Shown one piece after another: positions 1,459 to 53,211 of a stretch of DNA of 64,000 nucleotides. The notes under the pieces were generated by a model. That model was not told the DNA's origin, did not search any database, and saw only the letters and a list, made by a program, of their open reading frames with translations. The translations under genes were made by a program, and so were the position numbers. The DNA is from Sphingopyxis sp. Its GTDB lineage: Bacteria; Pseudomonadota; Alphaproteobacteria; Sphingomonadales; Sphingomonadaceae. How positions within the stretch are numbered: position 1 is the first letter of the stretch; every line of letters starts with the position of its first letter. The stretch lies in contig JAEULK010000050.1 in the NCBI GenBank assembly GCA_016793775.1, positions 1 through 64,000 on the forward strand, read 5' to 3'.

Positions 1459-1536
1459 CGGCGAGGCCCCCCATGCTCATCGTGGATGCGCGCGCGAGGC
1501 TATACCGGGGCCGGGGCGATGTCCATGCGGGGGCGG

Positions 1537-2457: not shown

Positions 2458-2487
2458 GCGCTGCGACCTCTTGTTCCCGCCCGTCCT

Positions 2488-36950: not shown

Positions 36951-37032
36951 TCTTTGCCGGAAGCTTGTCCATAGACCTCCCGCCCCGGCCCGCGCCGTGG
37001 CAGGGCCATCGCAACAGGAACACGAACCGCTT

Positions 37033-38094
37033 ATGACCGTTGCAATTCAGCCGATTACGGGCCGCCGCCAGCGGTACGCGCTGGTCGGATGCGGCCGGAT
37101 TTCGGCCAATCATTTCGCGGCGCTCGAGGCGCATGGCAACCAGGTCGAGATCGTCGATGTCTGCGATATCGATCCCGCCGCGCTGGCCAAGGCGACCGAG
37201 CGAACCGGCGCGCGCGGCCACGCCTCGCTGACCGACATGCTCAAGGCCACCGACGCCGATGCGGTGATCGTGACCACGCCGAGCGGGCTGCACCCCGCGC
37301 AGGTGATCGAGATCGCCGAATCCGGGCGCCACGTCATTTCGGAAAAGCCGATGGCGACGCGCTGGCGCGATGGCCTGCGCATGGTCGAGGCGTGCGACAA
37401 GGCGGGCGTCCAGCTGTTCATCGTCAAGCAGAACCGCCGCAACGCGACGCTGCAACTGCTCAAGAATGCGGTGTCCAGCGGGCGTTTCGGGCGCATCTAC
37501 ATGGTCGCGGTCAATGTTTTCTGGACGCGGCCGCAGGATTATTACGACAGCGCCGCGTGGCGCGGCACATGGGAGTTCGACGGCGGCGCGCTGATGAACC
37601 AGGCGAGCCATTATGTCGATCTGCTCGACTGGCTGGGCGGCCCGATCGAGAGCCTGCACGCTTACACCGCGACGCTGGCGCGCAATATCGAGGTCGAGGA
37701 TACGGCGGTCATCAACGTCCGCTGGCGCTCGGGCGCGCTCGGGTCGATGAACGTCACGATGCTGACCTATCCCAAGAATCTCGAAGGATCGATCACCATC
37801 CTCGGTGAAAAGGGCAGCGTGAAGGTCGGCGGCGTCGCGCTCAACAGAATCGAGAATTGGGAATTCGAGACGCCGCATGCCGACGACGAACTCGTCGCGT
37901 CGGCGTCCTACGACACCGGCTCGGTTTATGGTTTCGGGCACCAGCTCTATTACGACAATGTCGTCGGCACGCTGGCGGGCGAGTGCGACGCCGCGACCGA
38001 CGGGCGCGAGGGGCTGCGCAGCCTGGAAGTGCTGATCGCCTCCTATCTCTCGGCGCGCGACGGCAAGCGCGTGTCGCTGCCGCTGGACTATTGA
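37033..38094 (+). CDS. wbpB: UDP-GlcNAc-uronate 3-dehydrogenase (WbpB/WlbA type)
   Basis: A 353-residue Gfo/Idh/MocA oxidoreductase. It has the NAD site [17 protein letters not shown] (15-31), the catalytic Lys region VISEKPMA, and the C-terminal [20 protein letters not shown], where the His and Asn fit the WlbA group. It oxidises UDP-GlcNAc-uronate at C3. The next genes encode the matching N-acetyltransferase (WbpD) and aminotransferase (WbpE). ATG 37033 has AGGA upstream, and the stop overlaps wbpD (TGATG). An 82-base gap precedes it, the largest within this stretch. Confidence 0.9.
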
Positions 38095-38657
38095 TGGGCG
38101 CCAAGATCCACGAGACCGCCATCGTCGATGCCGGCGCCGAGATCGGCGACGGCACCGCGATCTGGCATTGGGTGCATGTCTGCGCCACCGCGCGGATCGG
38201 TGAGGGCTGCTCGCTCGGGCAGAATGTCTATGTCGGCAACGATGTCACCATCGGCAATAATGTCCGCATCCAGAACGGGGTGTCGGTCTATGACGCGGTG
38301 ACGCTGGAAGACGATGTCTTCTGCGGGCCGGCGATGGTTTTCACCAACGTCTACAACCCGCGTTCGGCGGTGCCGCGCAAGGACGAGTATCGCGAGACGA
38401 TCGTGCGCACGGGCGCGACGCTCGGCGCGAACTGCACGATCGTGTGCGGGGTGACGATCGGCGCCCATGGCTTCGTCGGCGCGGGATCGGTGATCAACCG
38501 CGACGTGAAACCCTATGCGCTGATGGTGGGCGTGCCCGCGCGCCGGATCGGTTGGATGTGCGAATGCGGCGTCCGGCTCGAAGGTCAGGGTACGGTCACC
38601 TGCACGGCCTGCGACAGCGAATATCAGATAACAGACGAGGAATGTTCTCCCCGATGA
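38094..38657 (+). CDS. wbpD: UDP-2-acetamido-3-amino-uronate N-acetyltransferase (WbpD type)
   Basis: A 187-residue left-handed beta-helix acetyltransferase with regular hexapeptide repeats ([34 protein letters not shown]). It has the WbpD loop [17 protein letters not shown] and the C-terminal cysteine-rich tail CECGVRL...CTAC, as in known WbpD/WlbB proteins. It uses acetyl-CoA to acetylate the 3-amino group of UDP-GlcNAc3N-uronate. It is sandwiched between wbpB and wbpE with overlapping ends, so the three are almost certainly one functional unit. Confidence 0.92.
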
Positions 38658-39769
38658 GCGACGTGATCGAATTCAACGACCTCAAGGCCCAGTATCGCGC
38701 GGTGAAGACCTCGGTCGACGCGCGCATCCAGGCGGTACTCGACCATGGCCAATATATCATGGGCCCCGAGGTCGCCGAACTCGAAGAGAAGCTGGTCGCC
38801 TATACCGGCGCCAAGCATTGCATCGGCGTCGCCTCGGGGACCGAGGCGCTGCTGATCGCGCTGATGGCGCTCGACATCGGTCCGGGCGACGAAGTCATCA
38901 CGACATCGGCGACCTTCGTGGCGACGGTCGAGGTCATCGCGCTGGTCGGCGCGACCCCGGTGTTTGTCGATATCGACCCCGCGACCTCGACGATCGATCC
39001 GCAGGCGGTGAAGACCGCGATTTCGGACAGGACGCGCGCGATCATCCCCGTCTCGCTTTATGGCCAATGCGCCGATATGGACGCGATCAATACGATCGCG
39101 GCGCCGCAGAATATCGCGGTGATCGAGGATGGCGCGCAGAGCTTCGGTTCGACCTACAAGGGGCGCCGCAGCGGCAGCACGTCGGGCATCGGTTGCACCA
39201 GCTTTTTTCCCGCCAAGCCGCTGGGCTGCTATGGCGACGGCGGCGCGATCTTCACCGACGACGACGAACTCGCACAGGTCTGCCGCGAAATCCGCATCCA
39301 CGGCCAGTCGCGCCGCTTCCACCACACGCGCGTCGGCGTCGGCGGGCGGCTCGACACGATCCAGGCGGCGGTGCTGCTCGCCAAGCTCGAGATTTTCGAC
39401 GAGGAAATCGCGCGGCGGCAGGCGCTCGGGGCGCGCTACCTCGCGGCCTTCGCGGGACATAACGCGCTCGAACTGCCGATGATCGCCGCCGACCGGACGA
39501 GCGTCTGGGGCTATTTTGCGCTGAAATCGCCGAACCGCGCGGCGGTCCTCGATGCGCTGAAGGCGGCGGGCGTGCCGAGCGGGGTGCATTATCCCGAGCC
39601 CATGCACGTCCAGCCGGCGTACCGGGACAAGTGCCGCGTCGCGGGCAGCATGGCCGAGACCGATCGCTGGTCGGAGCAGGTGTTCAGCCTGCCGATGCAC
39701 GCCTATCTGACCGACGAAGCGCAGGACCGCATCATCGCCGCGGTGCTGGCGGGGGCCGGCGCGGCCTAA
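38654..39769 (+). CDS. wbpE: UDP-3-keto-uronate aminotransferase (WbpE/WlbC, DegT family)
   Basis: A 371-residue PLP-dependent aminotransferase of the DegT/DnrJ/EryC1 family. It starts [14 protein letters not shown] and has [14 protein letters not shown] (the PLP phosphate loop), [15 protein letters not shown] (PLP-ring Asp) and the catalytic Lys in [16 protein letters not shown]. It transfers an amino group from glutamate to the C3-keto sugar made by WbpB. The start at 38654 (MSDVIEF) is preferred; ATG 38642 would add four residues. It overlaps wbpD. Confidence 0.93.
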
Positions 39770-39779
39770 GCACGCTGGC

Positions 39780-40472
39780 ATGAGCCGCCTCCTCAACATG
39801 CAGATGAGTTGGCCCGCCACGGCGATCGACCGGCTGCGCCGGATGTTCGAGGCGCGCTTTCACCGCCTGACCGGGCGGCGCTTCTTCGTCGATACCGCGC
39901 AGACGCAGGTCGATGTGCATTTCCGCATGTGGTTCTGGCAGCGGATCATGCGCCGCAACGCCGATGCCTATTGGCCGGTACACCCTTCGACGCGCGTGCG
40001 CGGCGGGCGCTTCGTGGTGATCGGCCCGGAGACGTCGCCCGGCTGGAGCGTCGGTTGCGACATCGACGGGCGGGGCGGCATCTACATCGGCGATTATACC
40101 CAGATCGCGCCGACGGTGCGGATGTACTCGGTCGCCGAGGGGCAGGAGCCGACCGGGGCGCCCGACGATTTTTCGATATCTATCGGTAAATATAGTCTGC
40201 TGACGATGAACGTCGTCGTCGAGGCCGGCGTGACGCTCGGCGACTTCACCATCGTCGGGGCGAACAGCGTCGTCACCGACAGTTTCCCCGAAGGACACTG
40301 CGTGATCGCGGGCAATCCGGCGCGGCTGATCAAGCGGCTCGATCCTGCCGCCTGCGAGCATTGGCAGCGCGCCACCCCCTATGTCGGTTATACCCGGCTC
40401 GCCGAGATCGCGAAGCTGCGCGGCGCCGCGATCGATTCGGTGCTGTTCGACCGCATCTGGGGCGCCGCATGA
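39780..40472 (+). CDS. Left-handed beta-helix acyltransferase
   Basis: A 230-residue protein with hexapeptide repeats in its second half (FVVIGPETSPGW..., GGIYIGDYTQIAPTV..., VVVEAGVTLGDFTIVGANS) and the usual closing motif PEGHCVIAGNPARLIKRLD. Such enzymes O- or N-acetylate sugars using acetyl-CoA. The first 70 residues are basic and helical, and precede the helix domain. It follows wbpE after 10 bases and overlaps the next, related acyltransferase gene. Substrate unknown; an O-acetyl decoration is likely. Confidence 0.84.
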   Translation: MSRLLNMQMSWPATAIDRLRRMFEARFHRLTGRRFFVDTAQTQVDVHFRMWFWQRIMRRNADAYWPVHPSTRVRGGRFVVIGPETSPGWSVGCDIDGRGGIYIGDYTQIAPTVRMYSVAEGQEPTGAPDDFSISIGKYSLLTMNVVVEAGVTLGDFTIVGANSVVTDSFPEGHCVIAGNPARLIKRLDPAACEHWQRATPYVGYTRLAEIAKLRGAAIDSVLFDRIWGAA

Positions 40473-41065
40473 GCCGCGCCATTCCCTGGCGCGTCCGTTT
40501 CGCGCAGCATCTGATCGGGATCAACGGCGCGGCCTATTGGCCGATGCATCCCCACAGCCAGCTCGCTTACCCGAACCGCGTGCTGCTCGGCCGCGACAGC
40601 TGGCCGGGGATCGAGCCGCTCTGCTATGTCAGCGCGAACATGGGGCTGGTGATCGGCGATGGCGTGCGGATCGGCCGCGAGGTCGGGCTGATCACCGGCA
40701 ACCACGACCCGACCCGCCTCACCAACTATCTCGAGGTCGCCCCCCAGATCATCGGCCATCATTGCATCGTCGAGGATGGCTGCACGATCCTGCCCGGGGT
40801 CGAGCTCGCCGATTTCTGCATCGTGACCCGCGGCAGCGTGGTGACCAGATCCTGCCTAAAACCCCGCTCGATCCTGACCGGCAATCCGGCCAAGGTCGTG
40901 GGGACCCACGATCGCCCTGTCCCGGCGATCGCGGCGGATGCCAAGCACGGCTATATCCCTGCGGCCGATTTCGACGCCTTCTCGCGCCGCAATCTGCGGC
41001 ACCAATATCTCGGGCGCTTCGGCGCCGCCTTTACGCCGCCATCATCGATCGCTAGCCGACCATAA
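40469..41065 (+). CDS. Second left-handed beta-helix acyltransferase
   Basis: A 198-residue hexapeptide-repeat protein. Both N-termini share the pattern 'AYWPVHP/AYWPMHP', so it and the preceding gene look like diverged tandem copies. Visible features are NMGLVIGDGVRIGREVGLIT, then the putative catalytic TGNHDPTRLTNYLE, then IVEDGCTILPGVELADFCIV and the end loop ILTGNPAKVVG. ATG 40469 overlaps the previous stop, and its stop overlaps the next ATG (TAATG). Likely an acetyltransferase that decorates the glycan or an amino-sugar precursor. Confidence 0.84.
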   Translation: MSRAIPWRVRFAQHLIGINGAAYWPMHPHSQLAYPNRVLLGRDSWPGIEPLCYVSANMGLVIGDGVRIGREVGLITGNHDPTRLTNYLEVAPQIIGHHCIVEDGCTILPGVELADFCIVTRGSVVTRSCLKPRSILTGNPAKVVGTHDRPVPAIAADAKHGYIPAADFDAFSRRNLRHQYLGRFGAAFTPPSSIASRP

Positions 41066-42894
41066 TGTGCGGGTGGGGAATCCTGGTAAATCGCGACGGG
41101 CGACCGATCGAGCGCGCCAAATTGCAGGCGATGGCGGATGCGGTGGCGCATCGCGGCCCCGATGCCGAAGGTATCGTCGAGCTTGGGGCGGTCGGCCTTG
41201 CGCACCGGCGGTTGGCGGTCATCGACGTCAACGACCGGTCGAACCAGCCGATGCGCAGCGGCGACAATTGGCTGCAATTCAACGGCGCCATTTATAATTT
41301 CCGCGAGCTGCGCACCGAGCTCGAGGCGCTGGGGCACATATTCCACACCAGGTCGGACACCGAAGTCCTGCTCCATGCGCTCGACCAATGGTGGGTCGAC
41401 GCGCTGCCGCGGTTGCAGGGCATGTTCTCCTTCTGCTTCTACGACGCGCGGCGCCGGAAACTGCTGCTGGCGCGCGACCGCTTCGGGATCAAGCCGCTCT
41501 GCTATCACCTGTCCGACCGCGTTATCCTCGCGGGGTCGGAAGCGAAGCAGTTGCTCGCCACCGGCCTCGTCGGTTCGGCGCCCGATCATTCGGTGCTGCG
41601 CACCTTCCTCGAATATGGGCGGCTCAACCTCGACGAACGCAGCTTTTTTGCCGATATCAAGCTGCTGCCGCCGGGCCAACTCGCGGTCTATGACCTCGCG
41701 CGCGACGATATCGTCCAGATGCGCTGGTACGACCTGGCGCTGCATGTCGAACCGCAGGGCGATATCGCTTATGGCGAGGCGTGCGAACGGCTGCGCGCCT
41801 TGTTCGACGATGCGGTCCGTTCGCACCATGTCGCCAATGTGCCCGTCGGCGCCAGCCTGTCGGGCGGCATCGACAGTTCGTCGATCGCCGCGTCGAGCGC
41901 GCCGGTGGTGGGCGATCCGGGGCAATTCCCGCTCTTCACCATCTATCATGCCAACGAACAGCATGACGAACGCGACTATGCGACGCAGGTGAGCGAGCGT
42001 TTCGGTTTCCGGCATATCGAAGTGCCGGTGTCGCTGCTCGACTATTACACTCCCGAATGGCTCGAAAGCTTCGCCTGGTCGCAGGATCAGCCGCTGCCCG
42101 GGGGCAGCCATTTCAACGAGCATGCGCTGTTCAAGGCGGCACATGAAGCCGGCGTGACGGTGATGCTCGACGGCCAGGGCGCCGACGAATATTTCGGCGG
42201 TTATGGCGAATTCTGGCTCGCGGCGCAGCGCGCGGCGCTGAAGAGCGGTCATATTGCCGAGGTCGGGCGCAATCTGCGCGGACGCAGCCTGACCAATGAC
42301 GAGCCGATGCCGCTCACCGCGCGCAAGATGGTCGCGGCGCTGGCCCGGCGCGAGAGCGACGTATCACCGCTGATGGCCGGGCTGTGGCGCGGCAAGGGCG
42401 CGGCGCGCCACGCCTATGCGCCGCCCAAGGATTTCCGCCCGCTGTCGATCGACGAGCTGGTGCGGTCGAGCATCCCCTATCAGCTCCATTCGCAGGACCG
42501 CAACGCGATGCAGTTCGGAATCGAATCGCGCGTGCCCTTCCTCGATCACCGGCTGGTCGAGTTCGTCTGCAGTCTGCCGACCGACTATCTGGTCGGGCGC
42601 GGATGGCAGAAGCGTATTTTCCGCGATGCCATGTCCGAATTGCCGGACGCGATCCGCTGGCGGCGCGGCAAGATCGGCTTTTCGTCGCCCGACGCCGAAT
42701 TCGGGGTGCAATATCCCGCGCAGCTCGCCGCGATGCTCGACGACGCGACGGCGACGCTCGCACCGCTGCTCGACACCGCCGAACTGCGCGCACGGCTGGG
42801 CCGCTACCGGCTCGATCCGACGCGCTACGACTCAGCGATATTTCGCTTGATCAGTCTCGCGGCGTGGGTCAGGCGGTTCGCGGTTTCGCTATAA
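41065..42894 (+). CDS. Asparagine synthase-like glutamine-dependent amidotransferase
   Basis: A 609-residue two-domain enzyme. The N-terminal Ntn glutaminase starts MCGWGILV with catalytic Cys2, followed by AHRGPDAEG. The C-terminal synthetase has the PP-loop SLSGGIDSSSIAAS that activates a carboxylate with ATP. The length fits AsnB. In surface-polysaccharide loci these proteins (e.g. WbpS in Pseudomonas) convert uronic acids to uronamides; true asparagine synthesis is less likely here. It overlaps the acyltransferase gene by one base. Candidate substrates are the HexNAc-uronic and GalA residues made in this locus. Confidence 0.88.
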   Translation: MCGWGILVNRDGRPIERAKLQAMADAVAHRGPDAEGIVELGAVGLAHRRLAVIDVNDRSNQPMRSGDNWLQFNGAIYNFRELRTELEALGHIFHTRSDTEVLLHALDQWWVDALPRLQGMFSFCFYDARRRKLLLARDRFGIKPLCYHLSDRVILAGSEAKQLLATGLVGSAPDHSVLRTFLEYGRLNLDERSFFADIKLLPPGQLAVYDLARDDIVQMRWYDLALHVEPQGDIAYGEACERLRALFDDAVRSHHVANVPVGASLSGGIDSSSIAASSAPVVGDPGQFPLFTIYHANEQHDERDYATQVSERFGFRHIEVPVSLLDYYTPEWLESFAWSQDQPLPGGSHFNEHALFKAAHEAGVTVMLDGQGADEYFGGYGEFWLAAQRAALKSGHIAEVGRNLRGRSLTNDEPMPLTARKMVAALARRESDVSPLMAGLWRGKGAARHAYAPPKDFRPLSIDELVRSSIPYQLHSQDRNAMQFGIESRVPFLDHRLVEFVCSLPTDYLVGRGWQKRIFRDAMSELPDAIRWRRGKIGFSSPDAEFGVQYPAQLAAMLDDATATLAPLLDTAELRARLGRYRLDPTRYDSAIFRLISLAAWVRRFAVSL

Positions 42895-42931: not shown

Positions 42932-44260
42932 ATGATTGGCGCGGATTTGCTGGCCCGACTGTTCAAATTGCGACGTTCGTCCTTCCTGCGCAGCGCCGCG
43001 ACGCTGTCGGGCGGGCAGTTCGTCGCGACCGCGATCAGCTTCGGTTTCGCGCCGATCCTCAGCCGCCTTTACGCGCCGCAGGATTATGGCGTGCTCGCGA
43101 CCTATATGTCGATCGCGGTCATCCTGTCGGCGCTCGCCAACCTCCAGATGGCGCGCGCGCTGGTCGCCGAGGCCGACGAGGAACAGGCGCATGCGTTGCT
43201 CGGGCTCAGCCTGCTGCTCGCCTTCGTCTTTTCGGCGCTGACGCTCGCGGGTGTGCTGTTATTGCGCGCCGGCGGCGTCCAGGGGCTCGACGATCTCGGC
43301 ATCTGGTTGTTGCTGCTTCCCGCCACCGTGCTCGCGTCGGGGACCGGCGCGGCGCTGCTCGGCTGGGCGAACCGCCACCACCGCTACCGGCTGATGAGCG
43401 GCTATCAGATACTCAACGTCCTCGTCTCGTCGGGCGGCGCCTTGCTGCTCGCCTGGGCGGGCTATGGCGCGCGGGGACTGATGATCGGCTATTTCCTTGG
43501 CCAGCTCGCCGCCTTCCTGTGGGTGTGGATCGGCAACCGCGACGCGATCGCGGGACTGCGCGGCATGCGCTGGGCGCGGATGCGCGCCGCGGGTCATGTG
43601 CACCGCAACTATGCGCTGTGGACCACCCCGACGTCGGTGATCGAGCAGGTGTCGTCGGCCTCGCCCGTGCTCGTGCTGTCTTTGTGGGGCAATATGCTCG
43701 CGATCGTCGGCCATTATAACCGCGCGCGCGGGCTGCTGATGCTGCCCGTCGGCATATTGGGCGGGGCGATCGGGCAGGTGTTTTTCCGCCGCGGAGCGCA
43801 GGACATGGCGCGCGCGGGCCATTGCCGCCCCTTGTTCTGGAAACTGGTCGCCGGCATGAGCGCGATCAGCGTGCCGACCTTCGCCCTGCTCGCGCTCATC
43901 GCGCCGCAATTGTTCGTATTCATCCTCGGGCCGCAGTGGAGCGAGGCGGGGCATATCGCGCGTATCCTGGCGCCGGTGATGGCGCTGCAACTGATCGTCA
44001 TGCCCGCATCGAAAGTGCTGTGGCTCTATCACCGCCAGCGGCTCGACTTCTTCCTGTCGATCCTGTTCGCGGTGGTGACGACCGTGGCGGTGGCCTCGGT
44101 CGCCTTTCTGGGTTTTGCGCCCGAAATCGCCATCGACGTGTTTGCGGGCGCGCAGATATTGTTATACCTCGTTTATCTTGGCAGCAGCATCCTGATCGTC
44201 GAGCGCGATCACCGAAGCAGACGGGGGCAGTCCGCGGAAGCGGCAGCGGTGAAACCATGA
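42932..44260 (+). CDS. wzx: Lipid-linked repeat-unit flippase (Wzx type)
   Basis: A 442-residue integral membrane protein with 12-14 predicted helices of the MOP superfamily (polysaccharide synthase/Wzx). The N-terminal sequence FLRSAATLSGGQFVATAISFGFAPILSRLYAPQ... is a typical first helix pair, and PLSFLV-like periplasmic loops follow. It moves the completed undecaprenyl-linked unit to the periplasm for polymerisation by Wzy. It directly precedes hisH2 with an ATGA overlap. It is the only flippase in the window although two polymerase-like proteins exist. Confidence 0.9.
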   Translation: MIGADLLARLFKLRRSSFLRSAATLSGGQFVATAISFGFAPILSRLYAPQDYGVLATYMSIAVILSALANLQMARALVAEADEEQAHALLGLSLLLAFVFSALTLAGVLLLRAGGVQGLDDLGIWLLLLPATVLASGTGAALLGWANRHHRYRLMSGYQILNVLVSSGGALLLAWAGYGARGLMIGYFLGQLAAFLWVWIGNRDAIAGLRGMRWARMRAAGHVHRNYALWTTPTSVIEQVSSASPVLVLSLWGNMLAIVGHYNRARGLLMLPVGILGGAIGQVFFRRGAQDMARAGHCRPLFWKLVAGMSAISVPTFALLALIAPQLFVFILGPQWSEAGHIARILAPVMALQLIVMPASKVLWLYHRQRLDFFLSILFAVVTTVAVASVAFLGFAPEIAIDVFAGAQILLYLVYLGSSILIVERDHRSRRGQSAEAAAVKP

Positions 44261-44865
44261 TCACCATCGTCGATTATGATGCGGGCAACCCGCGCTCGAT
44301 CATCAATATGCTCCAATATCTGGGGCATCGCGCCGAGCTGACCGGCGATCCCGACAAGGTGGCGAAGGCCGAGCGGCTGATCCTGCCCGGGGTCGGCAAG
44401 TTCGACTGGGGCATGCAGCGCCTGCACGACAAGGGCCTGTCGGCGCCGCTCGACGAAGCGGTCGGGCGCGGGGTGCCGATGCTCGGCATATGCCTCGGTG
44501 CGCAGTTGCTGACGCGCGGCAGCGAAGAGGGTGCGCTTCCGGGCTTTGGCTGGGTGCCGGCCAAGACCGTCGCTTTCGACCGCGCGCGGCTCGACGCGCG
44601 GCTAAAGGTGCCGCATATCGGCTGGGCCGACACCGACTGGAACAGCGGGCACCGCATGGCCGTCGATACCCCCGGCGCGCGCTATTATTACGTTCACAGC
44701 TTCCATATTGCCTGCGACGATCCCGCGACCGAACTGTGCAGCACCACGCACGGCTATCGCTTCGCTGCGGGGGTCGAGCGCGACAATGTCTTCGGGGTGC
44801 AGTTCCACCCCGAAAAGAGCCTTTCCTTTGGCATGGCGGTACTCAGCCGCTATGCGGCGCTCTGA
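44257..44865 (+). CDS. hisH2: HisH2 glutaminase subunit of the amidino-sugar system
   Basis: A 202-residue class-I glutamine amidotransferase. The nucleophile Cys79 sits in GICLGAQ, and His184/Glu186 lie in FHPEKS. The start DYDAGNPRSI and PGVGKFDWGM distinguish it from histidine-pathway HisH (DYGxGN, PGVGAF). In Pseudomonas O5 the HisH2/HisF2 pair makes ammonia that WbpG uses to convert a 3-acetamido to a 3-acetamidino group. Here hisF2 and wbpG follow, but a sulfotransferase gene is inserted after this one. Confidence 0.92.
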   Translation: MITIVDYDAGNPRSIINMLQYLGHRAELTGDPDKVAKAERLILPGVGKFDWGMQRLHDKGLSAPLDEAVGRGVPMLGICLGAQLLTRGSEEGALPGFGWVPAKTVAFDRARLDARLKVPHIGWADTDWNSGHRMAVDTPGARYYYVHSFHIACDDPATELCSTTHGYRFAAGVERDNVFGVQFHPEKSLSFGMAVLSRYAAL

Positions 44866-44867
44866 CC

Positions 44868-45698
44868 ATGGCGCCGGCGCTCCCCAATCTGATCGTCATC
44901 GGCGCGATGAAATGCGGGACGACCAGCCTGAACGACTATCTCGACCTGCATCCCGACGTGCATATGGCGGCCGACAAGGAGATCAACTTCTTCTCGGGCG
45001 AAAATGCCCACCGCTCGCTCGACTGGTATTGCGCGCAATATGACCGCGCGAAGGCGGTGCGCGGCGAGGCGTCGCAAAATTACAGCAAGGGCCACCACCC
45101 CTTCTACAAGGGCGCGCCCGAGCGGATGGCGGCGATCATTCCCGAGGCGAAGCTGATCTACCTCGTCCGCGACCCGATCGAGCGTTATCGCTCGCATATC
45201 GTCGAAAATTATGTCGGCGAGACGGTGCAGGAAGACATCGCCTGGAACCTGGCCAACGACCATCAGTTTCAGACCGGCAAATATGCCTGGCAACTGCGCT
45301 TTTTCCTCGAATATTTCCCGATGGAGCAGATATTGGTGGTCGACAGCGACGAACTCAATCGCGCGCGACACGAGACGATGAACGCCATTTTCGCCTTCCT
45401 CGGGATCGATCCGGTCGCCGATGAAAAGGCCTTCGCGTTCAAGTCGAACACCAATGCCACGAACGGCGTTCCCAACCGCTGGCGGATGGCGCTGCCCTAT
45501 CGCGCCGCGCGCAAGCTCGCGCCCTTCGATCTCGACGCGCAGCTCAGCCGCCCCGCGGTTGCCAAGGTCCTGTTTCCGGGCCTTGAAAAGCCCGAATTGT
45601 CGGACGAGCAGGTCGACGATCTGCGCAGCCGCTATGCCCCCGACGTGGCGCAGCTGCGCGCGCTGACCGGGCAAGGTTTCGCGAAGTGGCAGGTCTGA
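44868..45698 (+). CDS. PAPS-dependent sulfotransferase
   Basis: A 276-residue sulfotransferase. The 5'-phosphosulfate loop IGAMKCGTTSL (11-21) and the 3'-phosphate site LIYLVRDPIERYRSHIVENY match the family, and the Arg/Ser of the second motif are intact. It transfers sulfate from PAPS to a hydroxyl or amine, here most plausibly on the glycan or its lipid-linked precursor. It lies between hisH2 (2-base gap) and hisF2 (1-base overlap), an arrangement not seen in the classical wbp locus. No PAPS-synthesis genes are in the window. Confidence 0.88.
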   Translation: MAPALPNLIVIGAMKCGTTSLNDYLDLHPDVHMAADKEINFFSGENAHRSLDWYCAQYDRAKAVRGEASQNYSKGHHPFYKGAPERMAAIIPEAKLIYLVRDPIERYRSHIVENYVGETVQEDIAWNLANDHQFQTGKYAWQLRFFLEYFPMEQILVVDSDELNRARHETMNAIFAFLGIDPVADEKAFAFKSNTNATNGVPNRWRMALPYRAARKLAPFDLDAQLSRPAVAKVLFPGLEKPELSDEQVDDLRSRYAPDVAQLRALTGQGFAKWQV

Positions 45699-46474
45699 TG
45701 CGGCGGATTCGCGTCATCCCGGTGCTGACTATCGACCGCGAACGGCGGCTGGTGAAGACGGTGGCGTTCGGCAAGCGTACCTATATCGGCGATCCGATCA
45801 ACGCGGTGCGTATCTTCAACACCAAGATGGTCGACGAAATCCTGCTGCTCGACATCGACGCGACGATCGACGGGCGCGGGCCGAATTTCGAGGCGATCGG
45901 CGATATCGTCGAGGAAGCTTTCCTGCCGATGGGCTATGGCGGCGGCATCCGCAGCATCGACGACGCGGCGCGGCTGTTCCAGCTCGGCCTCGAAAAGGTC
46001 GTGCTGTCGAGCGCGGCGCTGGCCGATCCCGCGCTGGTGACCGCGATCGCCGAACGTTTCGGGGCGCAGGCGGTGGCAGTGTCGCTGCCCTATGCGAAGA
46101 AATTGCTCGGCGGGCAGCAGGTGCTGACGCGCAGCGGCAAGGTCAAGACCGGGCAGTCGCCGGTCGAGGCGGCGAAGGCGATGGCCGCGTCGGGCGCAGG
46201 CGAGATCATCCTCTACAGCATCGACCGCGACGGCAAATGGTCGGGTTTCGACCTGCCGACGATCACCGCGGTGGCCGAGGCGGTCGATGTGCCCGTCGTC
46301 GCGTGCGGCGGCGCATCGGCGCTCGGCGACTTTCTGCCCGCGATTCAAGGCGGCGGCGCATCGGCGGTGGCGGCGTCGAGCCTGTTCGTCTATCGCGCCC
46401 AGAATCAGGGCGTGCTGATCTCCTATCCCGACGAGGCCGATCTGCGCGACCAGTTTTTTGCCAAGCTCGACTGA
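45698..46474 (+). CDS. hisF2: HisF2 ammonia-channel subunit of the amidino-sugar system
   Basis: A 258-residue (beta/alpha)8 barrel of the HisF/HisA group. It keeps the phosphate-binding half (MGYGGGIRSIDDA; VPVVACGGASALGDF) and the LYSIDRDGKWSGFD segment. The two catalytic aspartates of true HisF, in IPCLDV and strand 5, seem replaced (IPVLTID; AVSLPYAK). That agrees with a role in passing ammonia from HisH2 rather than in imidazole synthesis. The ATG overlaps the sulfotransferase stop; wbpG starts 10 bases after its stop. Confidence 0.9.
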   Translation: MRRIRVIPVLTIDRERRLVKTVAFGKRTYIGDPINAVRIFNTKMVDEILLLDIDATIDGRGPNFEAIGDIVEEAFLPMGYGGGIRSIDDAARLFQLGLEKVVLSSAALADPALVTAIAERFGAQAVAVSLPYAKKLLGGQQVLTRSGKVKTGQSPVEAAKAMAASGAGEIILYSIDRDGKWSGFDLPTITAVAEAVDVPVVACGGASALGDFLPAIQGGGASAVAASSLFVYRAQNQGVLISYPDEADLRDQFFAKLD

Positions 46475-46484
46475 ACGGGACCCC

Positions 46485-47642
46485 GTGACCGACGCCACCT
46501 CTCCCCTGCCCACCTCGTCGACGCGCGTCTGCACGCGCACCGTGATGGACGGCAGCGATCCCGATATCGTCTTCGACGAAGATGGCGTGTCGAACCACTG
46601 GTACGAATATCAGGCGCTGATGGCGACGCAGCCGGGGGCCGAGGAGAAGAAGGCGCGGCTGGAGAAACTGCTCACCGACGTCCGCGCCGACGGCGAAGGC
46701 AAACCCTATGACTGCGTCATCGGCCTGTCGGGCGGGGTCGATAGCAGCTATGTCACCTGGCTCGCCAAGCAATGGAATTTGCGGCCGCTGATCGTCCATT
46801 TCGACAATGGCTGGAACAACGAACTCGCGGTCCGCAATATCGAGAATATCTGCAAGAAACTGGGGTTCGAGCTGCACACTTTCGTGATGGACTGGGAGGA
46901 GTTTCGCGACCTCCAGCGATCCTATTTCAAGGCGTCGGTGGTCGATCTGGAGGTGCCGACCGACCATATGATCTCGGGCGCGCTCTATCGTCTCGCGGCG
47001 AAGCACAAGCTCAAATATATGCTCTCGGGACTCAATTTCGCGACCGAATCAGTGATGCCACCATCGTGGAACTATGCGAAGTTCGACCTCGAAAACATTC
47101 GCAATATTCACAAAAAATTCGGCACCAAGCCGCTGAAGAAATTGCCCGCGCTCGGCGTGTGGCAAAAGGCCTGGTATCAACTGGTGCGCGGCATCCATTC
47201 GGAAGCGGTGCTCGACCTGGTCGATTACAACAAGGCGGCGGCGAAAGAACTGCTGATCCGCGAACTCGACTGGGTCGATTATGGCGGCAAACATTATGAA
47301 TCGCTCTTCACCCGCTTCTACCAGGGCTACATCCTCCCGCGGAAATTCGGCGTCGACAAGCGCAAGGCGCATCTGTCGAACCTGATCCTGTCCGGCCAGA
47401 TGACGCGCGACGAGGCGTTGCGCGAATTGCAGCAGCCGACCTATGACGAGGCGACGCAGGAACGCGACAAGGCCTATGTGCGCAAGAAGCTGGGCTTCAC
47501 CGAGAGCGAGTTCGAGGCGGTGCTGAGCCTGCCCAACCAGCGACACGAGGTTTACGGCACCGACCAGGGCGAGCGCGAGCGCTATTTCCGCATCGTCGGC
47601 GCGCTCGGCAAAGCGATGCGAGCCCTCGGCATGAAACGCTAA
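46485..47642 (+). CDS. wbpG: N-acetyl sugar amidotransferase (WbpG/PseA family)
   Basis: A 385-residue ATP-PPase. The PP-loop VIGLSGGVDSSYVTW (78-92) binds ATP. The family start CTRTVMDGSDPDIVFDEDGVSNHW is aligned, but most of the zinc-type cysteines typical of WbpG/PseA (CxxC and CxxC) are replaced. It uses ammonia from HisH2/HisF2 to make an acetamidino group on a 3-acetamido sugar. No pseudaminic or legionaminic acid genes are present, so the WbpB-WbpE-WbpD product is the likely substrate. The GTG start is chosen because it lies 10 bases after hisF2; an ATG at 46458 overlaps it. Confidence 0.9.
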   Translation: MTDATSPLPTSSTRVCTRTVMDGSDPDIVFDEDGVSNHWYEYQALMATQPGAEEKKARLEKLLTDVRADGEGKPYDCVIGLSGGVDSSYVTWLAKQWNLRPLIVHFDNGWNNELAVRNIENICKKLGFELHTFVMDWEEFRDLQRSYFKASVVDLEVPTDHMISGALYRLAAKHKLKYMLSGLNFATESVMPPSWNYAKFDLENIRNIHKKFGTKPLKKLPALGVWQKAWYQLVRGIHSEAVLDLVDYNKAAAKELLIRELDWVDYGGKHYESLFTRFYQGYILPRKFGVDKRKAHLSNLILSGQMTRDEALRELQQPTYDEATQERDKAYVRKKLGFTESEFEAVLSLPNQRHEVYGTDQGERERYFRIVGALGKAMRALGMKR

Positions 47643-47646
47643 GCCG

Positions 47647-48771
47647 ATGCCCGCCCCCGACCTGCTCGGCGCTCCGCTGCGGATCCTGATGCTGTCGCCG
47701 CAGCCCTGGACGGGGCTGCAGGTGTCGAAACATCATTATGCGCGCGAACTCGCAGCACTGGGGCATGACGTCATCTTCGCCAACCCGCCGAGCGGCGATG
47801 GCCCGATCCGCCTGACGCCGAGCGATACGCCGAATATTACGCTGCTCGACCATCCGCGCATGCCGCTGGCGCGCGCCAAATATCGCGCGAAATGGCTATT
47901 TATCGCAGCGGCGCGAGTCAGGGCACGGGCGATCAAAAAGGCCGTTGGTCCGATCGACCTGCTGTGGGATTTCGACAATGCGCGGCAATTCGCCGACCAT
48001 CGGCCGTTCCGGGCGCCCGCGTCGATGCTGCACGTCGTCGACCGGCTCGATCCCGGCGACGCGATGCACCGCCATGCCGACCTGATCCTGGGCGTCGATG
48101 CGTCGATCGTCGGCGATATTGCCCCCGAGGGGCGGCCGAGCCATGTCGTCGGCCACGGCCTCTCGCCCTTGTTCGCCGAAGCGGCGCGCCTCCGGCTCGC
48201 GGCGCCGCGCGTCCGTGCCGGCGATGCGCCGGTCGTGGTCGGCTTCATCGGCAATCTCGCGCAGCCGGCGATGGACCGTGAGCGGGTCGCGGCGCTGGTT
48301 GCGGCGCACCCCGATTGCCGTTTTCGTTTTATCGGCCCGGTCGCCGGTGAAACCCCCGAGGTCCGGGCGTGGGTCGATGATCTCACGGGCCGCCCCAATG
48401 TCGAGATGGCGGGGCTGCTCAACGGCGACGCGCTGATCGCGGCGACGGGCGATGTCGATATCTGGCTGCTTCCCTATGACGTGGCGCGCGATCGCAATCG
48501 CGGGGTCAATTCGCACAAATTGCTCGAATATTTCGCGCTCGGCGGCGAAGTGGTGAGCAGCGCGATCGCCGCGCAGGCCGGCGCGCCGGGTATCTTCATG
48601 GCCGCGCCGGACGCGCCCGACGAGCTGCCCGCCCAATTGGGCGCGGCGATTACCGCGGTGCGCGCGGGGCGCGATACCGGCTGGCGCGCGCGCGCCGAAC
48701 TGGCGCTCGCAAACAGCTATCGCGCCAACCTCGAGCATATCGCCGCCCATCTGAAGGACAGCATGACATGA
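47647..48771 (+). CDS. GT-B glycosyltransferase
   Basis: A 374-residue GT-B enzyme. The N-terminal ILMLSPQPWTGLQVSKHHYARELAALGHDV and the C-terminal VGFIGNLAQPAMDRERVAALV, then IWLLPYD...NSHKLLEYFALGGEVVSS, fit glycosyltransferases whose donor loop reads NxxKLxEYxAxGxxVV. It follows wbpG by 4 bases, which makes it a candidate to transfer the amidino sugar. The stop overlaps the next ATG (ATGA). Confidence 0.82.
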   Translation: MPAPDLLGAPLRILMLSPQPWTGLQVSKHHYARELAALGHDVIFANPPSGDGPIRLTPSDTPNITLLDHPRMPLARAKYRAKWLFIAAARVRARAIKKAVGPIDLLWDFDNARQFADHRPFRAPASMLHVVDRLDPGDAMHRHADLILGVDASIVGDIAPEGRPSHVVGHGLSPLFAEAARLRLAAPRVRAGDAPVVVGFIGNLAQPAMDRERVAALVAAHPDCRFRFIGPVAGETPEVRAWVDDLTGRPNVEMAGLLNGDALIAATGDVDIWLLPYDVARDRNRGVNSHKLLEYFALGGEVVSSAIAAQAGAPGIFMAAPDAPDELPAQLGAAITAVRAGRDTGWRARAELALANSYRANLEHIAAHLKDSMT

Positions 48772-49634
48772 GCATGGAGATCAGCGCGAGCAGCCGGCTG
48801 GCCAACCGCATCCTGCGCCGGCTGCGGCAGTTCGATCGGCTCAATCGCAGCGTCGAGGCGACGGTTGGCGGCCGTCCGGTGGCGATCCCCGTGTCGGCGG
48901 GGTTGATGGCCGAACTGACCGAACCCTGGATGCTTGCGCTGCTGCGCCAGCTGATGACCATGGCGCCGGGCGCATTCATCGATGTCGGGGTCAATCTGGG
49001 CCAGACGCTGATCAAGGCGAAGACGATCGACCCCGCGCGCTGCTATGTCGGGTTCGAGCCCAACCCGGTGTGCGTCCATTATGTCGAGGAACTGGTCGCG
49101 GCGAACGGCTGGGCCGATTGCCGCGTCGTTCCTGCCGGGCTCGGCCTGACGAGCGGCATCGTCACGCTCGAACTTTATCATGGCCGCGGCGGCGATTCGG
49201 CGGCATCGATCGTCGAGGGCTTCCGCCCCGGCGAAGCGATCAGCTTTCGCAAGACCGTCGCGATCCTCGGCGCCGAAGATCTGCCCGACGACCTGCTCGC
49301 TGCGCCCCTGGGGCTGATCAAGATCGACGTCGAGGGCGCCGAGGCCGATGTCATCGACGCCCTCGCCCCCGTCATCGCGCGCGACCGCCCGCTGGTGTCG
49401 ATGGAAATCCTGCCCTGCTACGACGCGGCGCGCACCGACCGCATCGCGCGGCAGGCGCGGATCGAGGCGCGATTCGCCGGCCTCGACTATCGCATCCTGC
49501 GTGTGCTCCACGAGGGGCGCGGCGGCAGTTACGAGCTGATGCCGATCGACGCCATCGGCATCCATGGCGATCTTGCTTTGTGCGAATATGTGATCTGCCC
49601 CGCCGAGCGCGTGGCGGAGTGCCTGCCGCGCTGA
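48768..49634 (+). CDS. FkbM-family methyltransferase (second copy)
   Basis: A 288-residue SAM methyltransferase. It has the loop AFIDVGVNLGQTLIKAK, then CYVGFEPNPVCVHYVEELV, and the FkbM motif LIKIDVEGAEADVIDAL. It probably O-methylates a sugar. It is the last gene of the forward run and meets the opposing methyltransferase gene at 49642 with only 7 bases between stops. Its sequence is not close to the FkbM protein at 26616, so the two likely have different targets. Confidence 0.86.
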   Translation: MSMEISASSRLANRILRRLRQFDRLNRSVEATVGGRPVAIPVSAGLMAELTEPWMLALLRQLMTMAPGAFIDVGVNLGQTLIKAKTIDPARCYVGFEPNPVCVHYVEELVAANGWADCRVVPAGLGLTSGIVTLELYHGRGGDSAASIVEGFRPGEAISFRKTVAILGAEDLPDDLLAAPLGLIKIDVEGAEADVIDALAPVIARDRPLVSMEILPCYDAARTDRIARQARIEARFAGLDYRILRVLHEGRGGSYELMPIDAIGIHGDLALCEYVICPAERVAECLPR

Positions 49635-49641
49635 GGCGCGG

Positions 49642-50427
49642 TCAGAGCTTTTTGGGATAAAAGCCGAGCTTGCGCTTGATCCGCCGCTGGAGCAGGTCGC
49701 GCCGGGCGAGATTGAGCAGCGTGATCGGGCGATCGAACATCGTGCGTTCGGACAGGATCGCGCCGCGCAGCCGCGGGTTGGTCGCCAGCATCGCGCGGTA
49801 GCGTTCGGCGGCGGCGGGCCGCGCGATGAACAATTTATATTGCGTAATCAGAAAGGGTTGGAGCCGATCCTTCATCTCGGTGAGGAGGTGGATCGCCGCC
49901 ACTGATACATCGGGCCAGCCGATGCCGAAAAAATCATGGACGATCATCACCCCGTCGTCGGCGAGCACGGCTTCGGCGAGGCGCATGTCGTGGAGGACGT
50001 TGCGATAAGCGTGGCTGCCATCGACACTGAACAGCCGCACGTCGCCGATCCGCGCGTGCAGCGCTTCGGGGGTGATCGTCAGCGAATCGACGGTCCACAC
50101 CTCCTGTTCGTCGAGCGCGATGCCGAGCCGGGCGCGATTGTCGAAAAAGGCGGTGTCGCGGCCCGCATGGATGCCGGTGTTGAGACCGTCGTCCTTGAAC
50201 AGGTCGATCGCGAGCGCGCGCTCCCCGGCCTGGCGCAGCAAGGCGAGGATGAAGAATAATTTGCCGTGGTGAACGCCGATTTCCGCAAGATTTCCGCCGA
50301 TCCCCCGTTCGACCTGCCAGCGGCCGATCGCGTCGATCGCGGCCCATTCGACATGGCCGAAATAGCCGGCGACGGCCTCGATCTGGCGGGCGATATAGCG
50401 GTCGAGCGCTTTGAAATTGGCCGCCAA
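49642..50427 (-). CDS. Class I SAM-dependent methyltransferase-like protein
   Basis: A 261-residue protein with a Rossmann-type methyltransferase core (Methyltransf_24 style): NLAEIGVHHGKLFFILALL, then ALAIDLFKD, then VRLFSVDGSHAYRNVLHDMRLAEAVLADDGVMIVHDFFGIGW. The SVDGSHxY segment is common in sugar-modifying and macrocin-O-type methyltransferases. It is encoded convergently to the second FkbM gene and upstream-facing from the WbpM gene (40-base gap). Its target is unknown; a glycan hydroxyl is plausible from context. Confidence 0.72.
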   Translation of the reverse strand: MAANFKALDRYIARQIEAVAGYFGHVEWAAIDAIGRWQVERGIGGNLAEIGVHHGKLFFILALLRQAGERALAIDLFKDDGLNTGIHAGRDTAFFDNRARLGIALDEQEVWTVDSLTITPEALHARIGDVRLFSVDGSHAYRNVLHDMRLAEAVLADDGVMIVHDFFGIGWPDVSVAAIHLLTEMKDRLQPFLITQYKLFIARPAAAERYRAMLATNPRLRGAILSERTMFDRPITLLNLARRDLLQRRIKRKLGFYPKKL

Positions 50428-50467: not shown

Positions 50468-52432
50468 TCAGCCCGCCAGCGGTGCCTGTAGGGCGGGGTC
50501 CGCCCGGTTCACTTCCTCGGGCGGGCGGAATTCGGGGACCAGCTCATGCAGGATGTCGAGGCAGTCGCCGGCATGGCCATGGTCCATCGCGCCGCGCAGC
50601 GCGTCGAGCTTTGCCGACAGTTCGGTCCACTCGAGCATCACCTCGCGCGCCTGCATGATGCGGCTGTGGCTCGTCGGCTTGGGATCGTCGCCGATCAGCA
50701 GTTCCTCATAAAGCTTCTCACCCTGGCGCAGGCCTACCTCGGCGATTTCGATGTCGCCGTCGGGATGATCCTCGTCGCGCACGGTCAGCCCCGAGAGGTT
50801 GATCATCGTGCGCGCGAGTTCGATGATCCGCACCGGCTTGCCCATGTCGAGCACGAAGACCTCGCCGCCCTTGGCCATCGCACCCGCCTGGATGACGAGC
50901 TGCGCCGCCTCGGGGATGGTCATGAAGAAGCGCGTGACGTCGCGGTGCGTGACCGTCACCGGACCGCCATTCTTGATCTGCTCGCGGAACAAGGGCACGA
51001 CCGATCCGCTGGACCCCAGCACATTGCCGAAGCGCACCATCGCGAAGCAGGTCTTGGTGCCGCGCGCCGCCAGCCCCTGGAGCACCAGTTCGCACACGCG
51101 CTTCGACGCGCCCATGACATTGGTCGGGCGCACCGCCTTGTCGGTGCTGATCAGCACGAAGTTGGCGACGCCGACGCGGTCGGCCTCGGTCGCCATGAAC
51201 AGCGTGCCGCACACATTGTTGCCGATGCCGGCGATCGGATTGGCCTCGACCAGCGGCACATGCTTGTAGGCGGCGGCGTGAAAGATCGTGTCGGGCTGCC
51301 AGCGCGCGAGCAGGCGGCGGACCGTGGGCTGGTCCGTGACATTGCCCAGTTCCTCGATCAGTTCGGGATGCTGGCCCTCGGGCAATTCGGCGATCGCCGC
51401 CTGCAATTCCTGCCCGATCGCATAGAGGCCATATTCGGACGATTCGACGAGGATCAGCTTGTGCGGCCGCATCGTCACGATCTGACGGCATAGCTCGCTG
51501 CCGATCGAGCCGCCGGCGCCGCTGACCATCACGGTCTTGCCGACGATCGTGCGGCCGAGCAGCAGCTGGTTCGGCGGCACGGGATCGCGGCCGAGAAGAT
51601 CCTCGATCTGCACGTCGCGCAGATCGTTCACAGACACCTGTTCGTCGATGATCTGCCGCATATTGGGCAGCATGCGGACGCGGATCGGCCAGTCCTCGAG
51701 CGACTTCATCACCCGGCGGCGCTTCGAGCGCGTCACATGCGGCAGCGCCAGCAGCACGTCGGTGACGCCGTAAGTATCGACCAGATAGGGCAATTTGGGG
51801 CGCGAATAGATGGGCACGCCGTCGATGATCTCGCCCTCGACCTTGCGGTCGTCGTCGATGAAACCGACGAGCCGCATCGCGGGGTCGCCGCGCAGCGCCA
51901 TCGCCAGCTGCTGCCCCGCCTCGCCCGCGCCATAGATGAGCACGATCGACGCCTGCTGGATATCGCGGCGCTTGAGCAGATCGACGACCGCATAGCGCGC
52001 GACGATACGGGTCATCGCGAGGAAGAGCAGGAAGAGGATCGGCTGGATCACCGCCACGGTACGCGGAACACCGTCCATGCCGACGAAGCCGAAGATGACG
52101 ATCAGCGGGATGGCATAGAGCACGACCGAATAGCCGAGCCCAACCATCGTGCGTCCGCCCGAGAAGCGCAGGATCGAACTGTAGGTGCCGCGGATGAGGA
52201 AGATCGGCAGCCAGCTCGACAGCGCGATCACCGAGGCGAGGCCGACCCCGGCGTCGAAAATCTCCCAGCGGCCGAGGCGGAGCGAAAAGGCGACGAGCAC
52301 CGCCGCGACGCAGAGCAGCGCATCGGCGACGATCAGGATCGCACGCTTTTCGCTGCGCCCGAGCGCGACGAGCGACGCCAGCATCGCGAGGATCCGCTCC
52401 TCGGCCACCCCCCAGATCCGCCCCAGGATCAC
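50468..52432 (-). CDS. wbpM: UDP-GlcNAc 4,6-dehydratase, membrane type (WbpM/CapD/FlaA1)
   Basis: A 654-residue protein. Four N-terminal transmembrane helices are followed by a CoA-binding-like Rossmann domain (VLIYGAGEAGQQLAMAL) and the catalytic SDR domain (VMVSGAGGSIGSELCRQI). The active site reads STDKAVRPTNVMGASKR, with Met in place of the usual Tyr, as in the S-M-K triad reported for WbpM. It makes UDP-4-keto-6-deoxy-GlcNAc, the substrate for the WbpV/WbpK-like reductase at 35 kb. The GTG start at 52432 overlaps the phosphatase stop; ATG 52384 is an alternative. Confidence 0.93.
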   Translation of the reverse strand: MILGRIWGVAEERILAMLASLVALGRSEKRAILIVADALLCVAAVLVAFSLRLGRWEIFDAGVGLASVIALSSWLPIFLIRGTYSSILRFSGGRTMVGLGYSVVLYAIPLIVIFGFVGMDGVPRTVAVIQPILFLLFLAMTRIVARYAVVDLLKRRDIQQASIVLIYGAGEAGQQLAMALRGDPAMRLVGFIDDDRKVEGEIIDGVPIYSRPKLPYLVDTYGVTDVLLALPHVTRSKRRRVMKSLEDWPIRVRMLPNMRQIIDEQVSVNDLRDVQIEDLLGRDPVPPNQLLLGRTIVGKTVMVSGAGGSIGSELCRQIVTMRPHKLILVESSEYGLYAIGQELQAAIAELPEGQHPELIEELGNVTDQPTVRRLLARWQPDTIFHAAAYKHVPLVEANPIAGIGNNVCGTLFMATEADRVGVANFVLISTDKAVRPTNVMGASKRVCELVLQGLAARGTKTCFAMVRFGNVLGSSGSVVPLFREQIKNGGPVTVTHRDVTRFFMTIPEAAQLVIQAGAMAKGGEVFVLDMGKPVRIIELARTMINLSGLTVRDEDHPDGDIEIAEVGLRQGEKLYEELLIGDDPKPTSHSRIMQAREVMLEWTELSAKLDALRGAMDHGHAGDCLDILHELVPEFRPPEEVNRADPALQAPLAG

Positions 52433-53211
52433 GCCCCGATACCCTCCCCTGTCTTGAGGAAGCGCTGCGACCGGCCTTCGATCACCAGCGCGGTGAGCAT
52501 GCCGCTGCGATAGGCGCCGGTATCGATGCCGATACGGTTGGTGCGGCAATCGACGTCGGGGGTGATGGTATGGCCGTGCACGACCATCACGCCATGATCG
52601 CGCGGGTCGTCGAGAAATTCGTCGCGGATCCAGCGCAGGTCGTGAACCTGCTGTTGATCCAGCGGGCGTCCCGGAAAAATCCCTGCATGGACAAAGAGAT
52701 AATCGCCAATCTGCACATAGTCCACCATCGAGCGGAATAAACGAACATGCGAAGCCGGTATGCCGGCGTGGATTTGGGCGACCAAGGCCTCTCTATCGCC
52801 GAAGATTGTCGGGTCTTCAAGTCCATAGCTTTGCAGCGCCTGTTCACCGCCGTAGCGGATCCAGCCGGGCAGTTGCGCATGGGCGCCGTCGAGAATTTCG
52901 AGCAAAGCCTCTTCGTGATTGCCCATCAGCAGATGCATCTCGTCGATGTCGGCGGGCCTGGTCAACAGCCGCTCGACGACCTGTGCCGATTGCGGGCCGC
53001 GATCGATGAGGTCGCCGAGCATCACCAGATGGACGTGGTCAACGGGATCGCGCGCGCGCTCGTCGGCGATGCGCGCGAGCAGCGCGTCGAGCAGGTCGAG
53101 CCGGCCATGGACGTCGCCGATGGCATAGACGCGCGTACCGACGGGCACCTGCGGCCAGTCGTCGGCAACGGGTTCCGGGTCCGGCTTGCGGCTGAAAAGT
53201 CTTTTTAACAT
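52429..53211 (-). CDS. Calcineurin-like serine/threonine protein phosphatase
   Basis: A 260-residue metallophosphoesterase. The PPP-family metal motifs are intact: GDVHGRLDLL (32-41), GDLIDRGP and GNHEE, plus VMVVHGHTITPDV toward the C-terminus. Lambda/PrpA-type phosphatases act on Ser/Thr/Tyr phosphates. It heads a two-gene unit with wbpM (4-base overlap) and could act on the Wzc tyrosine kinase system, though that is only inference. ATG 53211 has GGTAAG upstream; 53214 is too close to it. A 220-base divergent gap separates it from wecB. Confidence 0.88.
   Translation of the reverse strand: MLKRLFSRKPDPEPVADDWPQVPVGTRVYAIGDVHGRLDLLDALLARIADERARDPVDHVHLVMLGDLIDRGPQSAQVVERLLTRPADIDEMHLLMGNHEEALLEILDGAHAQLPGWIRYGGEQALQSYGLEDPTIFGDREALVAQIHAGIPASHVRLFRSMVDYVQIGDYLFVHAGIFPGRPLDQQQVHDLRWIRDEFLDDPRDHGVMVVHGHTITPDVDCRTNRIGIDTGAYRSGMLTALVIEGRSQRFLKTGEGIGA

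Follow-up and report, generated by a model that had tools for sequence, protein, structure and literature searches.

Why does a gene for a predicted sulfotransferase stand between hisH2 and hisF2 in an amidino-sugar operon of Sphingopyxis, and what might its product sulfate? The question is raised by a stretch of 64,000 nucleotides from Sphingopyxis sp. (assembly GCA_016793775.1, contig JAEULK010000050.1, positions 1 to 64,000; hereafter the window), in which four consecutive genes are ordered hisH2, sulfotransferase (ST), hisF2 and wbpG, the ST being of the type that uses 3'-phosphoadenosine-5'-phosphosulfate (PAPS). In this locus an amidino-sugar operon of known kind has been extended, within one lineage, by a carbohydrate-type ST that is under selection. 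The genetics of the locus are solid, and a combined amidino and sulfate chemistry is likely.

The cassette and its sulfotransferase

The cassette consists of four complete open reading frames:

44257 to 44865, + strand: hisH2, glutaminase subunit (TIGR01855 above cut-off; motifs)
44868 to 45698, + strand: PAPS-type sulfotransferase of 276 amino acids (PF00685, 8e-18; PDB profile matches; structural model; Foldseek)
45698 to 46474, + strand: hisF2, ammonia-conducting barrel (NF038364, 5e-90, 301 of 310 bits; alignment)
46485 to 47642, + strand: wbpG/WbuX N-acetyl-sugar amidotransferase with PP-loop SGGVDSS (TIGR03573 above cut-off)

The preceding wzx-like gene overlaps hisH2 by 4 nt (ATGA), the ATG of the ST gene at 44868 follows the hisH2 stop codon after a gap of 2 nt, the ST stop codon and the hisF2 ATG at 45698 share 1 nt (TGATG), and wbpG starts from a GTG at 46485 after a 10-nt gap. 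The original prediction of a PAPS sulfotransferase tightly joined between hisH2 and hisF2 is upheld, in that the genes are intact, the order is confirmed, the arrangement recurs in relatives, and the ST is under purifying selection.

Family assignments were clear for hisH2 (174 bits against a TIGR01855 cut-off of 105, with a GICLGA motif containing Cys79, and HPE at position 184), for wbpG (266.4 bits against a TIGR03573 cut-off of 203.2) and for the ST (65.2 bits against the PF00685 gathering score of 22, with a further match to PF13469 at 2e-13). The top-matching family of hisF2 was NF038364, of AglZ/HisF2 type, at 301.1 bits slightly below its cut-off of 310. The genome's own HisF is encoded by a separate gene with 43% identity to hisF2, and alignment of the two places Thr and Pro in hisF2 at two positions that are Asp in the genome's own HisF, which we take to be the catalytic residues of the cyclase. 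Residues 129–132 of hisF2 read SLPY, the Pro standing where Asp is found both in the genome's own HisF and in the two distantly related HisF2 proteins aligned alongside; SLPY also occurs in the HisF2 of loci L002, L003 and L079.

An AlphaFold2 model of the ST had a mean predicted local distance difference test score of 88.4 and a predicted template modelling score of 0.85. The top 21 Foldseek matches to this model were 3rnl, 3-OST-1/3/5 and NDST1 (best TMq 0.69), and sequence-profile matches in the PDB comprised 3rnl together with human 3-OST and NDST chains, the same group. As modelled, the ST is nearest to heparan-sulfate 3-O- and N-sulfotransferases. A structure-based alignment (A2) was created from the window ST and 23 of 52 ST loci obtained by scanning genome contigs with two peptide patterns; those left out were mostly partial matches, with some full-length but weak ones. 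K15, R101 and S109 were invariant in all 24 rows, and E38, matched in 1t8t by the Glu of AEPHFF, was kept in 23. Presumably Lys15 contacts the 5'-phosphosulfate and Arg101 and Ser109 the 3'-phosphate, and we take Glu38 to be the catalytic Glu of the 3-OST type. The animal 3-OST and NDST enzymes act on glucosamine residues; by analogy, an amino sugar is only suggested as the acceptor of the ST. Inspection of the ST by eye revealed no signal peptide or membrane segment.

The ratio of non-synonymous to synonymous substitution rates (dN/dS), calculated by the Nei-Gojobori method with our own script, was 0.10 between the window ST and that of strain HIX, 0.07 between the window and genome G067, 0.08 between HIX and G067, and 0.06 between genomes G012 and G060. 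The ST is under purifying selection.

Distribution within and outside the genus

Among 80 Sphingopyxis genomes, hisF2 was detected at 83–100% identity in nine, and the ST at 54–100% identity in exactly those nine. The order hisH2–ST–hisF2–wbpG, for which a search of sphingomonad genomes had been proposed with the original prediction, occurs in six of them, with hisH2–ST gaps of 2–6 nt: the window genome (G000), HIX (G063, locus L008), G067, a Sphingopyxis metagenome-assembled genome (G092, L009), G001 and PET50 (G084, L010). In two others, 'Sphingomonadaceae bacterium 3R27E2-A' (G012, L012) and G060, the order is glycosyltransferase–ST–hisF2–wbpG and hisH2 lies directly 3' of asnB, as it likewise follows asnB in the ninth, KK2 (G068, L011). 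An intact ST gene stands directly before hisF2 in eight of the nine, at a spacing of -1 to 10 nt, so the arrangement is more than chance. ST and hisF2 thus form the conserved pair, whereas the positions of hisH2, wzx and some of the glycosyltransferases change. The stable unit is ST–hisF2–wbpG, and the earlier idea of an ST wedged specifically into the ammonia pair does not hold, hisH2 lying elsewhere in the cluster in three of the nine genomes. Packing by chance was considered and ruled out, given the recurrence of the ST–hisF2 adjacency in eight genomes.

The remaining slot, in KK2 (L079, 14566–14727), contains a 53-codon in-frame ST remnant that joins the beginning of the gene to its end; at the DNA level it is 84–92% identical to the ends of the ST gene of G012 and G060. 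Sporadic occurrence in relatives and a degenerate gene had been proposed as signs against the original prediction; the locus is indeed restricted, to nine of 80 genomes, and degeneracy is confined to this one slot of nine. In the PET50 record (L010), the wbpE, second hexapeptide transferase, wzx, capD and wbpA genes align in two to three pieces in different frames, with breaks near 2568–2619, 3916–3921, 6847–6868, 16971–16978 and 19823–19828, which look like sequencing frameshifts in that record; the ST, hisH2, hisF2 and wbpG of PET50 each align in one piece.

Elsewhere in the genus, genome G077 has a hisF2 at 45% identity and no ST match, and G046 has an ST relative at 35% and no such hisF2. 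Genome G008 has a wbpB at 77% identity and a distant hisH2–hisF2–wbpG cassette (42–46%), with no ST detected in 20 kb by tblastn. The his cassette of this locus (L152) spans 600–3042, and a second wbpG-like gene lies at 6758–7753 near a wbpB/D/E set.

The adenylylsulfate (APS) kinase gene, taken here as an indicator of PAPS supply, was present in all nine genomes with the locus, the match being full-length in eight and truncated at contig ends in the window genome. In the one-contig relatives G001, G060, G067 and G084, the nearest APS kinase gene lies approximately 104–256 kb from the ST gene; in the other four it is on a separate contig. The window genome, in which C10 is the window's contig, has only the last part of the gene in its assembly, where contigs C21 and C34 begin. 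These two contigs (L085 and L086) open with an identical 141 bases, the APS kinase end, which suggests that a region was duplicated or collapsed where the assembly breaks off.

Searches with hisF2 were extended to even samples of 397 genomes from the family, 385 from the class (14 matches, including the window's own) and 398 from the phylum (17 matches, including the window's own and three already collected). Family matches of 2.4e-49 and weaker were classed as ordinary HisF by score, a rule by which a weak HisF2 could be missed. This gave the 55 loci L097–L151 and, with L080 from G077 and L152 from G008 added, 57 comparison loci outside the nine-genome set, of which those of G052, G077 and G008 belong to the same genus. 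The hisH2 gene adjoins hisF2 in 56 of the 57, with at most 38 nt between profile edges in 54 of the 55 loci L097–L151; no hisH2 was seen in L140. There were no instances of an ST near hisF2 in any of the 57 loci, as judged by profile searches at an E-value of 1e-3 up to approximately 1.5 kb on each side (L097–L151) and by tblastn over 18 kb (L080) and 20 kb (L152). In the reciprocal direction, among the 52 loci of the peptide-pattern scan, with flanks of up to 10 kb and shorter for several, his genes occurred near the ST (tblastn, 1e-8) only in L008, L009, L010 and L012, all from the Sphingopyxis set. A search of the 397 family genomes for the ST identified seven genomes besides the window's own with weak ST relatives (1e-25 to 1e-31). 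A wider family of ST–hisF2 loci did not turn up in the sampled genomes; the layout could exist elsewhere, the genomes having been sampled, not searched exhaustively.

The surrounding cluster and the role of the sulfotransferase

The genes around the cassette are as follows:

37027 to 38094, + strand: wbpB-like Gfo/Idh/MocA dehydrogenase of the UDP-ManNAc3NAcA route (PF02894, 4e-40; PF01408, 9e-27)
38091 to 38657, start codon unrefined, + strand: wbpD-like hexapeptide acetyltransferase (PF00132, 2e-21)
38660 to 39769, start codon unrefined, + strand: wbpE-like DegT/DnrJ aminotransferase (PF01041, 5e-119)
39780 to 40472, + strand: hexapeptide acyltransferase 1 (PF00132, 6.6e-6, slightly below cut-off)
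40427 to 41065, start codon unrefined, + strand: hexapeptide acyltransferase 2, WcaF-like (PF00132, 5e-6, slightly below cut-off; NF007797, 2e-15, below cut-off)
41065 to 42894, + strand: AsnB-like glutamine amidotransferase, perhaps uronamide-forming (PF00733, 7e-65; TIGR01536 above cut-off)
42932 to 44260, + strand: wzx-like flippase (PF13440, 2e-20)
47647 to 48771, + strand: glycosyltransferase, group 1-like (PF13692, 7e-6, slightly below cut-off)
48768 to 49634, + strand: FkbM methyltransferase (TIGR01444, 3e-16)
49642 to 50427, - strand: methyltransferase, Methyltransf_24 (PF13578, 1e-13)
50468 to 52549, - strand: wbpM/capD-like nucleotide-sugar dehydratase (PF02719, 2e-114)
53435 to 54550, + strand: wbpI-like protein of the UDP-GlcNAc 2-epimerase family (PF02350, 2e-119)
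54453 to 55835, true start probably downstream of 54453, + strand: wbpA-like nucleotide-sugar dehydrogenase (PF03721, 2e-48)

Homologues of wbpA, B, D, E and I are all in the cluster (by Pfam in the window and by synteny in relatives), and family scans of the flanks also identified a glycosyltransferase-4 family protein and a Wzy_C-domain protein. The AsnB-like protein has the N-terminus MCGWG and matches the XrtA/PEP-CTERM amidotransferase family TIGR03108 below cut-off.

The cluster is an operon for a surface polysaccharide, seemingly of the Wzx/Wzy type, and is presumably transcribed as one unit. WbpA, B, E, D and I would produce a UDP-2,3-diacetamido-mannuronic-type sugar, by the UDP-diacetamido-mannuronate pathway as in P. 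aeruginosa O5, from which the exact amidino sugar can be predicted provisionally. HisH2 is predicted to free ammonia from glutamine, HisF2 to conduct it, and WbpG, using ATP, to convert an N-acetyl into an acetamidino group. The ST would transfer sulfate from PAPS to a hydroxyl of some sugar in the repeat unit, probably on the lipid-linked unit in the cytosol before Wzx flips it. The original prediction expected the glycan to be zwitterionic by virtue of its sulfate; this dependence on sulfate is not supported, because the predicted amidino sugar ManNAc3NAmA, a uronic acid, already carries a carboxylate and would give a zwitterion with no need of sulfate. A uronic acid may be amidated by the AsnB-like enzyme, at the cost of one negative charge; a sulfate could then, speculatively, restore the balance.

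It is probable that the ST adds sulfate to a sugar in the repeat unit to which the amidino sugar also belongs, within a Wzx/Wzy-type surface polysaccharide. In favour are the gene families, the intact ST before hisF2 in eight of nine genomes, the joint presence of close ST and hisF2 genes in the same nine genomes, the low dN/dS of near pairs, the conserved residues, the PDB sequence and Foldseek matches, the APS kinase gene in all nine genomes, and the full ST that KK2 carries despite the loss of its in-slot copy. Several observations weigh against this reading. The APS kinase gene, the sole PAPS gene tested, is neither in the cluster nor on the window's contig. The ST diverges faster than hisF2 (67% against 86% identity between the window and G001), as if its acceptor varied, and the remaining computable ST pairs gave dN/dS values of 0.10–0.48, less reliable with synonymous divergence near saturation in many. 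The co-occurrence of ST and hisF2 in nine of nine genomes is largely the inheritance of one linked locus, since wbpB at 85–100% identity marks the same nine. KK2 keeps hisH2, hisF2 and wbpG with only the ST remnant in the slot, so amidination can persist without an ST in that place. KK2 also has a second, full ST gene on another contig (L087, 9501–10322), beside a methyltransferase, a different wzx and a glycosyltransferase (neighbours named by reading), whose product groups in a tree with the ST proteins of G012 and G060, on a long branch with a placement called unsure by the tree tool. With only 62–63% identity to the nearest in-slot ST proteins and this unsure branch, replacement of the in-slot ST in KK2 is not established. 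The target of a working carbohydrate ST might instead be another molecule, be it a small molecule, a glycosphingolipid or a second polysaccharide, with only the gene string in common. The full ST of KK2 in its different locus, the persistence of hisF2–wbpG there without an intact in-slot ST, and the frequency of ST proteins in the genus, with some PF00685 protein in 72 of the 80 genomes, all favour this possibility; we nevertheless regard it as unlikely, given an ST that is intact in eight of nine slots and always keeps its place immediately 5' of hisF2, even though the hisH2, wzx and glycosyltransferase genes around it change.

Sulfation within the shared repeat unit, as favoured here, also has a narrower form, in which the amidino sugar itself, as UDP-sugar or lipid-linked, is the substrate of an ST coupled to HisF2–WbpG, the product being a sulfated acetamidino sugar. 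The overlap or very short spacing of ST and hisF2 in eight genomes points towards such coupling, as does the lack in the window's HisF2 of both HisF Asp positions, of which two distant HisF2 proteins keep the second; adjacency alone is no proof of a complex, the amidino genes persist in KK2 although its in-slot ST has been deleted, and this form appears doubtful. Similarly tentative is the proposal that HisF2, WbpG and the ST are one coupled unit building a sugar with both acetamidino and sulfate groups, maintained in a single Sphingopyxis lineage as the surrounding flippase, glycosyltransferases and hisH2 are exchanged; if true, the product would be a doubly charged building block, of which no description was found. 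That the ST is a functionless passenger, a neutral insertion tightly packed by chance, might be argued from its presence in only nine of 80 genomes, its degeneration in one slot and its GC content of 0.616, which is 4–5 points under that of hisH2, wzx and hisF2 (0.655–0.663). The corresponding values at third codon positions are 0.82 and 0.83–0.86, and such slightly lower values are no strong sign of a recent foreign insertion, a possibility considered and set aside. The dN/dS of 0.06–0.10 in four near pairs, the retained catalytic residues and the eight intact slots make a passenger very improbable. Hardly credible, finally, is a sulfotransferase fold that moves another group, in the manner of the Campylobacter O-methyl phosphoramidate transferases: the match to NF058596 is weak (E-value 5e-4, 19 bits against a cut-off of 600), sequence and fold match PAPS-binding carbohydrate sulfotransferases far more strongly, and the residues are conserved.

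Should the combined chemistry hold, named Sphingopyxis strains would provide a route, defined at the gene level, to a bacterial polysaccharide bearing amidine as well as sulfate, and the ST would be a candidate carbohydrate sulfotransferase with a narrowed acceptor set. The eight intact slots and the one remnant provide a natural contrast for what sulfate adds to an amidino glycan.

Comparison with known systems

The suspicion that no locus with this insertion had been described was in agreement with the open-access literature, in which no description of an ST in a hisH2/hisF2/wbpG cluster was found, most subscription journals lying outside the scope. We take the gene order of P. aeruginosa O5 to be wzx–hisH–hisF–wbpG, without a sulfotransferase. 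The Sphingopyxis locus has in common with that of P. aeruginosa O5 (PAO1) the amidino genes, the wbpA, B, D, E and I homologues and a wbpM-like dehydratase, and differs in the ST before hisF2, in the AsnB-like enzyme and methyltransferases nearby, and in belonging to a sphingomonad. In PAO1, wbpA, B, D, E, G, I, L and M are among the genes building O-antigen monomers, with ManNAc3NAmA named (PMC8319346), and the O5 repeat contains ManNAc3NAmA (PMC5701251).

For the ST itself, the heparan sulfate 3-O-sulfotransferases, the NDST domain and bacterial 3rnl are the best sequence and fold matches, with the Lys, Glu, Arg and Ser positions aligning; the ST differs in being bacterial and in an identity of only 21–24% over the fold matches. 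Among sulfated polysaccharides, the capsule cluster of Vibrio sp. KMM 8419 likewise contains sulfotransferase genes, with a sulfated sugar shown chemically, and clusters with PAPS genes plus an ST are termed a hallmark (PMC11641403). Its PAPS genes are inside the cluster, and the proposed exporter is an ABC transporter; neither amidotransferase nor HisF occurs as a word in that paper (PMC11641403). A review of marine bacterial antigens mentions both sulfate and acetamidino groups, with no polysaccharide bearing both in the passages covered (PMC3210612), and sulfotransferases are mentioned in Pontixanthobacter and Allopontixanthobacter, with no amidino cassette in the passages covered (PMC10040529).

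The closest described case is Cluster B of Sphingomonas sp. LM7, a wzx/wzy cluster concluded to make a cell-surface polysaccharide, in which insertions altered colony morphology and deletion of wzyB led to a denser cell envelope (PMC11340318). Words beginning with 'sulf' are absent from the main text of that paper, and the gene list of the cluster includes WbuX, HisF2, HisH, an MviM dehydrogenase, a WxcM acetyltransferase, a PLP aminotransferase and an exosortase-associated amidotransferase (PMC11340318). In this list WbuX, HisF2 and HisH are consecutive, as RS19260, 19265 and 19270 (PMC11340318).

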